A stretch of DNA of 42,829 bases, taken from Symbiobacterium thermophilum (GTDB lineage Bacteria; Bacillota; Sulfobacillia; DYFQ01). The position numbers and the translations under genes are program-made. The notes beneath the pieces are model-generated. The model did not search any database. It was not told where the DNA came from and worked only from the letters and a program-made list of their open reading frames with translations. Numbering within the stretch: the first letter of the stretch is position 1; the number at the start of each line of letters is the position of its first letter. Positions 34,385 to 39,539 of this stretch are shown here, in pieces. The DNA lies in contig DYFQ01000025.1 in NCBI GenBank assembly GCA_020725105.1, positions 1 to 42,829 of the forward strand. Reading direction: 5' to 3'.

Positions 34385-35263
34385 TCACGCCTGGTCGGCC
34401 CCGAGCCCGGCGACGAAGCCGGGGCTGAGGACGCCGCGGCAGACCTCCTCGACGGGACCGGTCTGGCGGAGCGACCAGTCCGGGCCGACTTCCACCTCCA
34501 GTTCACCGCCCTCCATCACCACCCGCACGCCGGGGCCCACCAATCCCAGCCGGCGGCAGGCGGCCGCCGCAGCGCAGGCGCTGGACCCCGACGCCAGGGT
34601 GTGGCCGGCGCCCCGCTCCCAGACGAGCATCCGCACCCGGTCCCGCCCCTCGACCGTCGCCAGTTGAACGTTGGTGCGCCGCGGGAAGGCGGGGTGGGTC
34701 TCGATCGCCGGTCCCAGGCTGAAAAGGTCGTCCCGGGTCCAGGCCTCGCCCACTATCACGCAGTGGGGATTGCCGATGGAGAGCGCCGTCACGGACAGGC
34801 GCCGGCCGGCCGCCTCCAGGGTCTCGCCGACGACCTCGCGGGCCGGCCCGGTCATGGGGATCTGGTCGCTCCGGAAGCTGGCCCGGCCCATGCCGACGGT
34901 GACCGCCCGCACCCGGCCACCTTCGACCCGGAGGCGGCACTCGACCATCCCGCCGGGAGTGTCGACGGTAAAGGTCTCGCGCGGGGTGTAGCCGTGGCTG
35001 AACAGGAAATGGGCAAAGATCCGGAGCCCGTTGCCGCTCTTTTCTGCCTCGCTGCCGTCGGGGTTGAGGATCCGGAGGCCGAAGTCGGCTCGGTCCGGGG
35101 GGACCAGCAGGAGGATGCCGTCGGACCCGACCCCGTAGTGGCGGTGGCAGATGCGGCGAACTGCCTCCGCCTTGAGGCCAAAGCCCAGCCGCGCCCCGTC
35201 GAACACCAGGTAGTCATTGCCCAGCCCGTGGGCCCGGACGAACTCGTTCTCCGCCAGCCCCAT
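34385..35263 (-). CDS. DapF-family epimerase homologue with both catalytic cysteines replaced by serine
   Basis: The 292-residue protein has the full two-lobed DapF fold. Residues equivalent to those binding the distal end of diaminopimelate in Haemophilus DapF are kept: Asn16 (GLGNDY), Asn67 (LNPDGSEAE), Asn165 (GNPHCV), Asn198 (RRTNVQL), Glu216-Arg217 (WERG). The base cysteines are not: Cys73 is Ser76 (EKSGNGLR), and Cys217 is Ser225 (HTLASGSSACA), where GETxACGTGACA is normal. Normal two-cysteine epimerisation is unlikely. The start is ATG 35263 with AAGGTGGG upstream. It follows the aldo/keto reductase gene by 49 bp. It may act on another substrate by a different base pair, or be inactive. 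Confidence 0.88.
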   Translation of the reverse strand: MGLAENEFVRAHGLGNDYLVFDGARLGFGLKAEAVRRICHRHYGVGSDGILLLVPPDRADFGLRILNPDGSEAEKSGNGLRIFAHFLFSHGYTPRETFTVDTPGGMVECRLRVEGGRVRAVTVGMGRASFRSDQIPMTGPAREVVGETLEAAGRRLSVTALSIGNPHCVIVGEAWTRDDLFSLGPAIETHPAFPRRTNVQLATVEGRDRVRMLVWERGAGHTLASGSSACAAAAACRRLGLVGPGVRVVMEGGELEVEVGPDWSLRQTGPVEEVCRGVLSPGFVAGLGADQA

Positions 35264-35312: not shown

Positions 35313-36290
35313 TCAGTTTTGGCCCGGCCCCACCAGGACCGCCCCCTCCAGGCGGCGGTCCACTTCCGCCCAGACCTGGTCGCCCAGGCGGACCCCGGCG
35401 GCCTTCGCATTCTCCTCCACCTGCTCCGGCCGCGTGGCGCCGGTGAGGGCGCTGGATACCTCCGGCCGGCGGAGCACCCAGGCCAGGGCCAGCTGGCTCG
35501 GGCTGAGGCCGTGCTCCCGGGCCAGGGGCACCAGCCGCTGCACGGCTTCCAGGACCGGATCGGACATGAGCCGTTGCATCCAGCGGCCCTGGTCCGGGTC
35601 GGCGGCCCGGGTTCCCGGCGGTGGCGCTTGCCCCGGCCGGTACTTGCCGGTCAGCACGCCCTGGGCCAGGGGAGAAAAGGGCACGAGGCCGATGCCCTCC
35701 CGGGCGCAGAGGGGCATGATCTCGGCCTCGATCAGCCGGTGCAGCAGGTTGTAGACGGGCTGGTCGGCGGCGATGGGGTCCAGTCCCAGCCGGCGTGCCA
35801 GGTAGACGGCGTCGGCGATCTGGGCCGCCGTCCATTCGCTTATGCCCACGTAGAGCACCTTGCCCTGGGTCACCAGGTCGTCCAGGGCCCGCAGCGTCTC
35901 CTCCGGGTCGGTTTCGGGGTCGTACCGGTGGCAGTAGTAGAGGTCGATGTAGTCCAGGCCCAACCGCCTCAGGCTGGCGTGGCACTGCTCCATGATGTGC
36001 TTTCTTGACAGGCCCCGGTCGTTGGGCCCGTCGCCCATGGCGCCGAAGACCTTGGTGGCCACGACGTAGCTGGATCGGGGCAGCCCCCGAAGGGCTTCGC
36101 CCACCACCTCCTCGGCGGCCCCCCGGGCGTAGACGTTGGCGGTGTCGAAGAAGTTGATCCCCAGGTCGTAGGCCCGGTGAATGGTGGCGACGGCGGCCTC
36201 CCGCTCCACGGCGGCGCCGAAGGTGAGCCAGCTTCCCAGGGAGATGGCGCTCACCTTGAGGCCGGTCTTGCCCAGCCGGCGGTATTCCAC
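35313..36290 (-). CDS. aldo/keto reductase
   Basis: The 325-residue NADPH-dependent TIM-barrel reductase has a complete catalytic tetrad: Asp49 and Tyr54 (FFDTANVYARG), Lys80 (VATKVFG), His121 (LYYCHRYD). The cofactor site near the C-terminus reads SSALTGATRPEQVEENAKA. Sequence style (YRRLGKTGLKVSAISLGSW) places it with the YajO/potassium-channel-beta-like branch. Those enzymes reduce aldehydes and ketones broadly. GTG 36290 has GAGGAAGG upstream. It lies 41 bp after the Lon-like gene. Confidence 0.93.
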   Translation of the reverse strand: MEYRRLGKTGLKVSAISLGSWLTFGAAVEREAAVATIHRAYDLGINFFDTANVYARGAAEEVVGEALRGLPRSSYVVATKVFGAMGDGPNDRGLSRKHIMEQCHASLRRLGLDYIDLYYCHRYDPETDPEETLRALDDLVTQGKVLYVGISEWTAAQIADAVYLARRLGLDPIAADQPVYNLLHRLIEAEIMPLCAREGIGLVPFSPLAQGVLTGKYRPGQAPPPGTRAADPDQGRWMQRLMSDPVLEAVQRLVPLAREHGLSPSQLALAWVLRRPEVSSALTGATRPEQVEENAKAAGVRLGDQVWAEVDRRLEGAVLVGPGQN

Positions 36291-36331
36291 GGCGATCCCT
36301 TCCTCGTGGCAGCCCCTGGCCGCGGGGTTTG

Positions 36332-38989
36332 TTAGGCGGTCCCGCCGCTCGGCCGGCCGGTCCGGTCCCGGTCGTCCTCCGGCGGCGGGGCCGGGCGGTC
36401 CCGGTCGTCCTCGGGCGGCGGGCTCGGGGGTTCCTCGGGCGGCTCGGGCGGCTCCGGCGGCCCGGGGGGTTCGCCCGGCCCCTCCTTCCGGCGCCGCGCC
36501 CCGCGATCCTCGTCGTCCTCGGCCCGAGCGCGGGGCGGTCTCGCGTACTGGCGCATCCGCTGGGCCAGCTCCCGCAGGCGCCGGTCCACCAGCTCGTTCA
36601 CGGTTCCCCGGGGGTAGCGGCCCCGGGCGTCCGGCTCGCCGGCGGGGACTCCGGTGAGCAAGGCGATCCCCTCGTCGATGGTCCGGATGGCCCACACGTG
36701 GAACCGGCCCTCGGTGATGGCCCGGCACACCTCGTCCCGCAGCATCAGGTTGGGCACGTTCTGGTGGGGGACGATGACCCCCTGACGCCCGGTGAGGCCC
36801 TTGACCTTGCAGACGTAGTAGAAGCCCTCGACCTTCTGGTTGATGCCCCCCACTGGCTGGATCTCGCCCTTCTGGTTCACCGAGCCGGTGACGGCGATGC
36901 CCTGGTCAATGGGCAGCCCCGACAGCTCCGAGAGGAGAGCGAAGAACTCGGCGACCGAGGCGCTGTCGCCGTCAACCTCGTCGTATAGCTGTTCGAAGGT
37001 GAGGGTGGCCGAAAGGGAGAGCGGCTTGTCCTGGGCGTACCTGCCCCCCAGGAGCGCGCCCAGGATCATCACGCCCTTGGAGTGGATGCGTCCCGAGAGG
37101 TCGGTCTCCCGCTCGATGTTGACCACGCCCCGCGCGCCCACGAAGGAACGGGCGGTGATCCGGTTGGGCTTGCCGAAGGCGTAGTCGCCCAGGTTGAGCA
37201 CGGCCAGGCCGTTGACCTGGCCCAGCGTTGCGCCTTCCACGTCGACGAGCAGGCTCCCCCGGGCGATGAGTTCCCGGATCTTCTCCTCGATCCGGTTGGA
37301 GCGGTAGATCTTCTCCTCCAGCGCCCGGGAGACGTGCTGGGCCGTGACCAGCGACCTGCCGTCGTGCCGGGCCCACTCGGCCGCCTCGTAGATGATCTCG
37401 GTGACCTCGTTGAACCTGGCCGAGAGCTTGGTCTGGTCCTCGGCCAGCCTGGAACTGTAGTCGACCACCCTGGCGACTGCCGACCGGTCGAAGTGGGGCA
37501 GGTTCCGCTGGTGGCAGATGGAGGCCACCACCGAGGCGTACTGGTTCAGCGTATCGGGGGTGCGGTCCATCTCGGTGTAGAAGTCGGCCCGGACCTTGAA
37601 CAGCTTACGGAAGTCCTCGTCAAACGTATAGAGCACGTAGTAGATCAGGGGATTGCCGACGAGCACCACCTTCACCCGGGAGGGAATGGGCTCCGGCCGG
37701 AAGCTGGCGGTGGGGATCAGCCCGTACTGCTCGTGGATGTTCTCGGTCCGGATCTGGCCGCTCTTCAAGGTCCGTTTCAGGGCGTCCCAGGCGAACGGGC
37801 TGGTCAGGACGTCCCTGGCCTGGAGCACGAGGTACCCGCCGTTGGCCCGGTGGAGCGCCCCCGGCTTCACCATGGTGAAGTCGGTGTGCAGCGTGCCGAG
37901 CTCGCCCCGGTACTCGACCTTGCCCACCAGGTTGTAGTAGGTGGGGTTGGGCTCTACGACCACCGGCGCCCCCCGGGTGTCGGAGTGGTCCACCAGCAGG
38001 TTCACCCGGTAGCGGACGAAGGCGTCACGGCGGCCCCGCATCTGGCGGAGGAGCACCGCCGGAAGCTGGGCCTCGGGCTCGCCGTCGTCCCGGAAGTCGT
38101 CCAGGTGCTCCACCACGTCCTGCTGCACCTGGTCCAGGTACTGGCGGACCCCTTCCTGGTCCCGGTACTTGTCCTTCAGCCGGCTCACCAGGTAGCCGGC
38201 GCAGTAGATGCCGACCTCTCCCTCGAGCGTCTTGAGCCGGTCCCGGGCCTCTTTTTCAAGCTGGCGCACCCGCCGCATGCCCTCCTGGACCTGGGCCTGG
38301 AGGTCCCGGCCCCGCTGGGCGATGGCTTCCCGCGTCTCTTCGGGGAGCTGGGTGAACTCCTCCTGGCTCAGGGGCTCGCCCTGGGCGTTCAGGGGGACGG
38401 TCATGATCCCGGTTGGCGTTCGCGACACGGCGAACTGCCGCTGGCGGGCGTCGGCCTCCAGTTGCTCCCAGACCGCGGTCACCGACTGCTCGACGCCCTG
38501 CACCAGCTCGCGCTTGCGCTTCTCGTATTCCTCGCTGGCAAAGGCCTTGCGGATCTCCTCTTTCAGGTCCTCTATCAGTTCGTCCATGTCCCGCCGGAAC
38601 TCGGCCCCCCGCCCCGAGGGCAGGCGCAGGGCCGTGGGCTGGTCCGGCTGGTTGAAGTTGTACACGTAGCACCAGTCGTCGGGGGGGATGCCCCGGGCTG
38701 CCACCTCCCGGACCTTGGCCTGGGTATAGGTGGTCTTGCCCGTGCCCACCGGCCCGGAGATGTAGATGTTGTAGCCCGGCTGCTGCATGGTGAGGCCGAA
38801 GTCGAGGGCCCGCACCGCCCGCTCCTGGCCGATGATGGCGTCCAGGGGCGAAAGCTCCGCCGTGGTCTCGAAGGGAAAGACGGCGGGGTTGCAGATGGCG
38901 CATAGCTGCTGGGCACCGATCCGGAGGCTCTCCCGGAGCTTTTGCACCTGGTCTCCCGGCTGGGATCGCTTGTTTTTCAAGGCACTCAT
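36332..38989 (-). CDS. Lon-like ATP-dependent protease (COG1067, AAA_32 plus S16 domain)
   Basis: The 885-residue protein starts with a CxxC-bearing segment (Cys30, Cys33). It then has the AAA domain with Walker A GPVGTGKTT (Lys85), a coiled-coil-rich insert (about 190-330, Glu/Arg/Gln-rich) and the C-terminal Lon protease domain. The Ser-Lys dyad is intact: Ser676 (DGDSASVAEF) and Lys719 (GGINQKVEGF), the 43-residue spacing seen in E. coli Lon. The last 50 residues are a Pro/Glu/Asp tail with PPPEDDRDR twice, encoded by a 17-bp repeat. ATG 38989 lies immediately after AGAGGG. A cytoplasmic quality-control protease, without the usual Lon N domain. Confidence 0.93.
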   Translation of the reverse strand: MSALKNKRSQPGDQVQKLRESLRIGAQQLCAICNPAVFPFETTAELSPLDAIIGQERAVRALDFGLTMQQPGYNIYISGPVGTGKTTYTQAKVREVAARGIPPDDWCYVYNFNQPDQPTALRLPSGRGAEFRRDMDELIEDLKEEIRKAFASEEYEKRKRELVQGVEQSVTAVWEQLEADARQRQFAVSRTPTGIMTVPLNAQGEPLSQEEFTQLPEETREAIAQRGRDLQAQVQEGMRRVRQLEKEARDRLKTLEGEVGIYCAGYLVSRLKDKYRDQEGVRQYLDQVQQDVVEHLDDFRDDGEPEAQLPAVLLRQMRGRRDAFVRYRVNLLVDHSDTRGAPVVVEPNPTYYNLVGKVEYRGELGTLHTDFTMVKPGALHRANGGYLVLQARDVLTSPFAWDALKRTLKSGQIRTENIHEQYGLIPTASFRPEPIPSRVKVVLVGNPLIYYVLYTFDEDFRKLFKVRADFYTEMDRTPDTLNQYASVVASICHQRNLPHFDRSAVARVVDYSSRLAEDQTKLSARFNEVTEIIYEAAEWARHDGRSLVTAQHVSRALEEKIYRSNRIEEKIRELIARGSLLVDVEGATLGQVNGLAVLNLGDYAFGKPNRITARSFVGARGVVNIERETDLSGRIHSKGVMILGALLGGRYAQDKPLSLSATLTFEQLYDEVDGDSASVAEFFALLSELSGLPIDQGIAVTGSVNQKGEIQPVGGINQKVEGFYYVCKVKGLTGRQGVIVPHQNVPNLMLRDEVCRAITEGRFHVWAIRTIDEGIALLTGVPAGEPDARGRYPRGTVNELVDRRLRELAQRMRQYARPPRARAEDDEDRGARRRKEGPGEPPGPPEPPEPPEEPPSPPPEDDRDRPAPPPEDDRDRTGRPSGGTA
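36363..36412 (-). repeat. 17-bp direct repeat encoding the Pro/Asp tail of the Lon-like protein
   Basis: CGGTCCCGGTCGTCCTC occurs at 36363-36379 and 36396-36412, a 33-bp (11-codon) offset, so slippage would keep the frame. It encodes the repeated EDDRDR element of the tail. Confidence 0.7.
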
Positions 38990-39209
38990 CCCTCTACCCT
39001 GAATCAGGAGGCGATCGTTGCCTTCGCGGACGCGCGATGGGGTTCCTGTCTGAGTTTGGCCGGGCAGGCGGGGGGCCACTCGCCTGGCCGTCCTCCAACC
39101 GGAGGTGGCTGGGTGCCCCACCGGTCCCAGGAGCCAGCGGGGCCGGCAGCGAAGATAGCCGGCGAGAGCAGCCACGAAAGTCGCCGCGCGGGCGGGGGAG
39201 GGGTGGATC

Positions 39210-39539
39210 ATGGAGGCCTTCTACGCGTATCACTGGGAGACGGTGCCCCCGGAGAAGGTGCACCCGGGAATCACCCGACAGCAGATCGACGGTGAGCACG
39301 TGACCGTTGTCCGGTACCAGTACGCCCCCGGGTCCGTCTATCCCGAGCACTCCCACCCGGAGGAGCAGGTCAGCATCGTCATCCGCGGGCCCGTCCGGGT
39401 GACCGTCGCCGACGTGACCAAGTCCTTCTGGCCGGGAGACGTGGTGGTGATACCGGGCGCGGCGCCCCACGCCATCCACGCGCCGGAGAACACCCCGGCG
39501 GAAACCATCACCGTGATCGCCCCGGCGCGGGGCCGGTGA
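39210..39539 (+). CDS. cupin domain protein
   Basis: This 109-residue single-domain cupin has motif 1 at about 38-60 (YAPGSVYPEHSHPEEQVSIV, metal ligands His47, His49 and Glu/Gln after) and motif 2 at about 75-92 (PGDVVVIPGAAPHAIHAPE). ATG 39210 has GGGGAGGGG upstream. Its TGA overlaps the GTG of the BtrH-like gene, so the two are translated together. Small cupins may be isomerases, dioxygenases or ligand sensors; nothing here decides which. The Lon-like gene is divergent; the 220-bp gap shows no clear promoter. Confidence 0.88.
   Translation: MEAFYAYHWETVPPEKVHPGITRQQIDGEHVTVVRYQYAPGSVYPEHSHPEEQVSIVIRGPVRVTVADVTKSFWPGDVVVIPGAAPHAIHAPENTPAETITVIAPARGR

Follow-up and report, generated by a model that had tools for sequence, protein, structure and literature searches.

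The 42,829-nucleotide stretch of DNA analyzed here (the window) encodes a protein that is a DapF homologue by sequence, fold, and substrate site, yet is not a canonical DapF. The thiol-thiolate cysteine pair that defines DapF was tested for and is absent, Ser76 and Ser225 standing in its place, and we therefore file the protein not as a canonical DapF but as a Ser/Ser variant. Judging from alignments, a structural model, and genome content, we consider it likely to be a working diaminopimelate (DAP) epimerase in which the serine pair replaces the thiol-thiolate pair. We also lean, less firmly, toward the wider proposal that in two phyla and in the window's lineage the only DAP epimerase is a fully active, thiol-free Ser-Ser racemase, with Ser228 and changed residues at the helix ends replacing the thiolate chemistry.

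Identification of a DapF homologue with two catalytic-site serines

The NCBIfam profile TIGR00652 matches residues 7 to 279 of the protein at 225.3 bits (cut-off, 114.65), and both halves of the protein match PF01678 in Pfam (164.9 bits). The sequence, which contains ...NPDGSEAEKSGNGLRI... and ...WERGAGHTLASGSSACA..., can be aligned from one end to the other with DapF chains of known structure, with 34 to 37% identity to the structures 8qzy, 4ijz, 1gqz, and 9mro. A longer open reading frame starting at 35410 is a mechanical call; the ATG listed in Table 1 was preferred for its fit to the family and for the GGTGGG upstream of it. The AlphaFold2 model (mean pLDDT, 96.1) has the two-domain DapF fold, and the top 16 entries recovered with it in Foldseek are all DapF (TM mostly 0.83 to 0.88). 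Proline racemase and hydroxyproline enzymes appear there only as distant fold matches (12 to 18% identity), and Pfam assigns the protein to DAP_epimerase alone, which places it outside the proline racemase family.

Table 1. Positions in the window of the Ser/Ser gene, its predicted functional residues, and its upstream neighbors
Feature	Position	Strand	Basis or remark
Ser/Ser DapF-like protein, 292 aa	34385..35263	(-)	ATG start 35263; TIGR00652, PF01678, AlphaFold2, Foldseek
Ser76, codon AGC	35036..35038	(-)	Replaces first catalytic Cys (Anabaena Cys75, H. influenzae Cys73)
Asn67, distal DAP-binding residue (predicted)	35063..35065	(-)	Alignment; contacts from PMC12039745
Glu216-Arg217, distal DAP-binding pair (predicted)	34613..34618	(-)	Alignment; contacts from PMC12039745
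Ser225, codon TCG	34589..34591	(-)	Replaces second catalytic Cys (Anabaena Cys224, H. influenzae Cys217)
Ser228, codon AGC	34580..34582	(-)	Third serine, clade-typical; Anabaena Gly227 equivalent
Aldo/keto reductase gene	35313..36425	(-)	PF00248, 271 bits; start approximate
LonB-like ATP-dependent protease gene	36332..39211 (frame)	(-)	PF13654, PF20436, PF20437, PF05362

A preliminary description of this DNA, made from the sequence, had proposed a DapF-family protein with serines for both catalytic cysteines and with its distal-substrate contacts kept, and the alignment to solved DapF chains bears this out. Ser76 and Ser225 align with the two catalytic cysteines and, in the model, directly precede the N termini of helices that begin at residues 77 and 226; the catalytic cysteines of known DapF likewise sit just before helix N termini (PMC12039745). 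The distal end of DAP is contacted in Anabaena DapF by Asn66, Asn164, Asn197, Glu215, and Arg216 (PMC12039745), and all five counterparts (N67, N165, N198, E216, and R217) are present. The motif SGSSAC for CGTGAC also reads as described, as does GHT for GET, though the latter does not mark the clade: GHT is common to the window protein and the Eisenbacteria branch (see below), and many Gemmatimonadota members retain GET.

Comparison of 43 aligned Ser/Ser members with 58 Cys/Cys proteins, all of which have cysteine at both catalytic sites, brought out further differences. S76, S225, S228, L80, Q200, and M250 are fixed in the 43 members, position 228 being glycine in every one of the 58; position 82 is I or V in the former and mostly Cys in the latter. 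The DAP contacts N16, N67, N165, N198, E216, and R217, together with H167, are invariant in the Ser/Ser members, and Asn67, Glu216, and Arg217 are invariant in the Cys/Cys proteins too. In Anabaena DapF, the backbone NH of Gly227 touches the catalytic sulfur (PMC12039745); the exact coincidence of the Gly-to-Ser change at 228 with the loss of sulfur looks, at the sequence level, like an adaptation. The one exception seen among Gemmatimonadota sequences (L274) has glycine at this position. Cys230 was considered as a replacement catalytic residue and rejected: it is fixed in the first 43 members but is Ser or Val in 3 of the larger set.

Distribution and phylogeny of the Ser/Ser clade

Two relatives with the same serine pair, one from Eisenbacteria (55% identity) and one from Longimicrobiales, turned up among genome contigs, the remaining matches being mostly Cys/Cys. 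A profile built from these two and the window protein was run over 395 genomes of Gemmatimonadota, the phylum to which Longimicrobiales belongs, with six candidates scored per genome, and matched 372 of them. Typing of the catalytic positions gave 108 Gemmatimonadota Ser/Ser loci (the 30 best, then 5 and 73 more), and 4 further fragments have serine at the site that can be read; the low scorers among the typed matches, and six of middling score, proved to be Cys/Cys. Together with 7 of the 47 Eisenbacteria genomes and the window's own, this makes 116 typed Ser/Ser genomes. One sequence that read as Cys/Ala in the large alignment (L063) was set aside, the reading being caused by an insertion. 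No typed clade member has cysteine at either catalytic site, and the Cys/Cys orthologues for which the preliminary description had allowed did not appear among them.

Because 115 other genomes have the same pair, it is neither a product of chance nor a sequencing error, and its retention throughout the 116 rules out a pseudogene or decay. A tree of DapF homologues, as suggested in the preliminary description, was built with IQ-TREE from 84 sequences after exclusion of the motif columns; all 29 Ser/Ser rows fall on a single branch (support, 100/100), and the window protein groups weakly with Eisenbacteria (87/63). In essentially all carriers, the Ser/Ser protein is the only DapF found, the exceptions being a second, weak match in one genome (G238) and a few genes split into pieces. 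A second, canonical dapF, which the preliminary description had raised for the window's genome, is not found there, and the Ser/Ser protein is the sole homologue. A paralogue next to a canonical DapF was accordingly rejected, no canonical copy having been found in this genome or in the Eisenbacteria and Gemmatimonadota carriers. A literature search that covered mostly papers available without subscription yielded no publication describing the clade.

Probable position in the pathway from LL-DAP to meso-DAP

The window's genome (73 contigs, 96.8% complete) was searched family by family. It encodes the LL-DAP aminotransferase DapL (NF006756; 550 bits; cut-off, 507), LysA (443 bits; cut-off, 298), and a MurE that exceeds the NCBIfam cut-off for the 2,6-DAP ligase and carries the motif SDNPR; LL-DAP is therefore made and meso-DAP consumed. 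A profile search recovered no meso-DAP dehydrogenase from this genome, and none of the 22 carriers tested has one over the cut-off; on these grounds, a bypass through DAP dehydrogenase was rejected. MurE with the DNPR motif is found in 19 of 21 other carriers, and two Ser/Ser genomes (G042 and G219) yielded no MurE match at E 1e-80. For cultured Longimicrobiia, the literature offered no usable statement on cell-wall DAP. The DAP dehydrogenase search was positive in 6 of the 41 genomes of the window's class. Four genomes of this class (G011, G013, G033, and G039; 81 to 97% complete) gave a match to neither DapF nor DAP dehydrogenase.

In most genomes of the class, a Cys/Cys dapF adjoins dapL, and in many of them the order is a P-type ATPase gene, Cys/Cys dapF, dapL, and then yicC. 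The ATPase gene and dapL are adjacent in the window's genome, with about 65 bases and no dapF between them: the canonical gene has disappeared from its conserved location. That it had merely been missed through incomplete assembly was rejected, the usual site being assembled and empty. Lacking both a DAP dehydrogenase and the canonical dapF, this genome thus shows no link between LL-DAP and meso-DAP other than the Ser/Ser protein. E. coli dapF mutants are viable, and because E. coli tolerates this loss, the sole-copy argument is not proof.

No other DAP genes lie beside the Ser/Ser gene, in keeping with the earlier remark that it stands away from lysine synthesis genes. The lon-like and aldo/keto reductase genes named in that description are indeed upstream on the same strand (Table 1); the latter ends some 50 bases before the start of the Ser/Ser dapF and is probably cotranscribed with it, and we know of no link between an aldo/keto reductase and DAP. 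Neighbors of the Ser/Ser gene vary between lineages, and therefore operon context points to no second function.

Alternative explanations

The protein might bind DAP or a close analogue and carry out other chemistry, such as alpha,beta-elimination or dehydration, with meso-DAP coming from another epimerase or a dehydrogenase. Among members of the proline racemase superfamily, Ser/Thr at the catalytic positions is the mark of a dehydratase (PMC4113996) and Cys-to-Thr replacement accompanies dehydratase instead of epimerase activity (PMC8142540), while the four genomes with neither DapF nor DAP dehydrogenase suggest that another source of meso-DAP may exist. However, no eliminable DAP derivative is known as a metabolite at the step from LL-DAP to meso-DAP, the protein keeps the residues that serve the two ends of DAP, and the same second enzyme would be required in every carrier, all of which makes this alternative unlikely.

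We regard as improbable a role in racemizing or epimerizing some other amino acid, even though DapF-fold enzymes exist for histidine, O-ureidoserine, and 2,4-diaminobutyrate (PMC11602996, PMC8225329) and, in one Gemmatimonadota branch, the gene lies within a his operon ordered purA-hisC-hisB-hisH-dapF-hisF. The distal DAP site (N67, N165, N198, E216, and R217) is invariant, and the protein scores as a DapF equivalog. In the his-linked loci, the Ser/Ser dapF occupies the usual hisA slot between hisH and hisF (L171:8767-9651 and the corresponding positions of L172, L173, and L174), and replacement of HisA was rejected, hisA being present elsewhere in those genomes. Nor would a histidine role explain the clade as a whole, since one Eisenbacteria carrier (G041) has the Ser/Ser gene without any hisA or hisF match.

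A dead pseudoenzyme with a regulatory role is harder still to credit. Both textbook catalytic residues are lost, and E. coli DapF is reported to bind and regulate RppH (PMC4227774); against this, drift would be expected at a dead site, whereas the serine pair and the substrate contacts are fixed in 116 genomes from two phyla and the window's lineage, and there is no other copy to take over the function. Of the changed chemistry put forward in the preliminary description, altered acid/base chemistry, as implied by a double replacement on a conserved scaffold, stands, and the dead, regulatory, and non-epimerase readings become less likely. The description had named as counterevidence a sole dapF with measurable activity in a diaminopimelate-requiring genome, and the genomic half of this holds for the Ser/Ser gene.

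An artifact, whether from misassembly, from misbinning of the contig, or from absence of a canonical dapF because the assembly is incomplete, is barely conceivable: although the assembly is fragmented and less than complete and the nearest clade members belong to other phyla, the place normally occupied by dapF is assembled and contains no such gene, the sole-copy pattern repeats in >100 other genomes, and a misbinned window contig alone would leave the clade finding unchanged.

Proposed mechanism and comparison with known systems

Taken together, homology, predicted fold, DAP site, fixed serine pair, sole copy, pathway, half-way forms (see below), and serine precedents favor a functional Ser/Ser epimerase over a dead or repurposed protein. 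Like known DapF, the protein would grip LL-DAP made by DapL at its distal amino-acid end, through Asn67, Asn165, Asn198, Glu216, and Arg217, and the domains would close after it binds. The hydroxyls of Ser76 and Ser225, placed before helix N termini, would then serve as the base and the acid, each on its own face of the alpha-carbon, giving meso-DAP for LysA and MurE. Ser228 probably assists this acid-base pair and may do so by orienting or activating Ser225.

A thiol is a far stronger acid than a serine hydroxyl, and this counts against a Ser/Ser epimerase, as do the dispensability of E. coli dapF, the location of the gene apart from other DAP genes, and the impairment of Cys-to-Ser mutants. 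The Fusobacterium histidine racemase shares the DapF fold and the two-base logic but is Cys/Cys, and its single Cys-to-Ser mutants lose most activity, with turnover greatly reduced (PMC11602996); such mutants have been built deliberately to slow DapF-fold enzymes for crystallization (PMC11602996, PMC12039745). Structures of DapF Cys73Ser and Cys217Ser (2q9h and 2q9j) show serine at the same positions in the same fold, these being laboratory single mutants as opposed to a natural double-serine protein.

Natural precedents for serine come from the proline racemase superfamily. The structurally characterized 4-hydroxyproline 2-epimerase uses Ser/Cys (PMC4113996) and resembles the Ser/Ser protein in its serine acid/base residue, active 1,1-proton transfer, and overall fold; it differs in having only one serine, in its hydroxyproline substrate, and in belonging to a separate, distant family. 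The Ser/Thr trans-3-hydroxyproline dehydratase (B9K4G4) is likewise free of cysteine at both catalytic positions, and its Ser90 is held by Asn93, three places on, an arrangement comparable to Ser225 and Ser228 (PMC4113996); unlike the proposed epimerase, it catalyzes elimination and acts on another substrate. Cys-to-Thr exceptions have been reviewed (PMC8142540). Canonical DapF (TIGR00652) shares fold, length, DAP-binding residues, and placement at helix N termini with the Ser/Ser protein, which differs from it in having Ser/Ser for Cys/Cys, Ser for Gly at 228, Ile or Val for Cys at 82, and Leu at 80.

Paired cysteines underlie the mechanism of cofactor-independent amino-acid racemases, and chemistry other than that accepted for the DapF family may exist. 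A large natural Ser/Ser clade, with the gene in sole copy in organisms that depend on meso-DAP, makes the question of whether the thiol is required directly testable. Because aziDAP and other covalent inhibitors of DapF react with the cysteines, a thiol-free epimerase, if confirmed, would matter for inhibitor design. Under annotation rules that require the cysteine pair, Ser/Ser bacteria would be recorded as having a broken lysine pathway.

Natural intermediates and other divergent forms

A natural half-way form, Cys/Ser, is the sole DapF in three genomes of the window's class (proteins L032, L038, and L049 of G025, G030, and G019, respectively), two of which lack a DAP dehydrogenase over the cut-off; L032 and L049 adjoin dapL. 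Because the three proteins fall on separate tree branches, serine at the second site probably arose more than once. The natural enzymes and their intermediates (Cys/Ser and Ser/Cys relatives) form a ready test set. Single-copy DapF-like proteins of the Ser/Cys type occur in Acidimicrobiia on a very long branch (L027:6001-6714, L028:3265-3978, and L029:6001-6714). In addition to its canonical protein (L061), a further genome (G031) encodes another DapF-like protein of the Cys/Cys type (L060:5815-6627), which is divergent and has a long branch.
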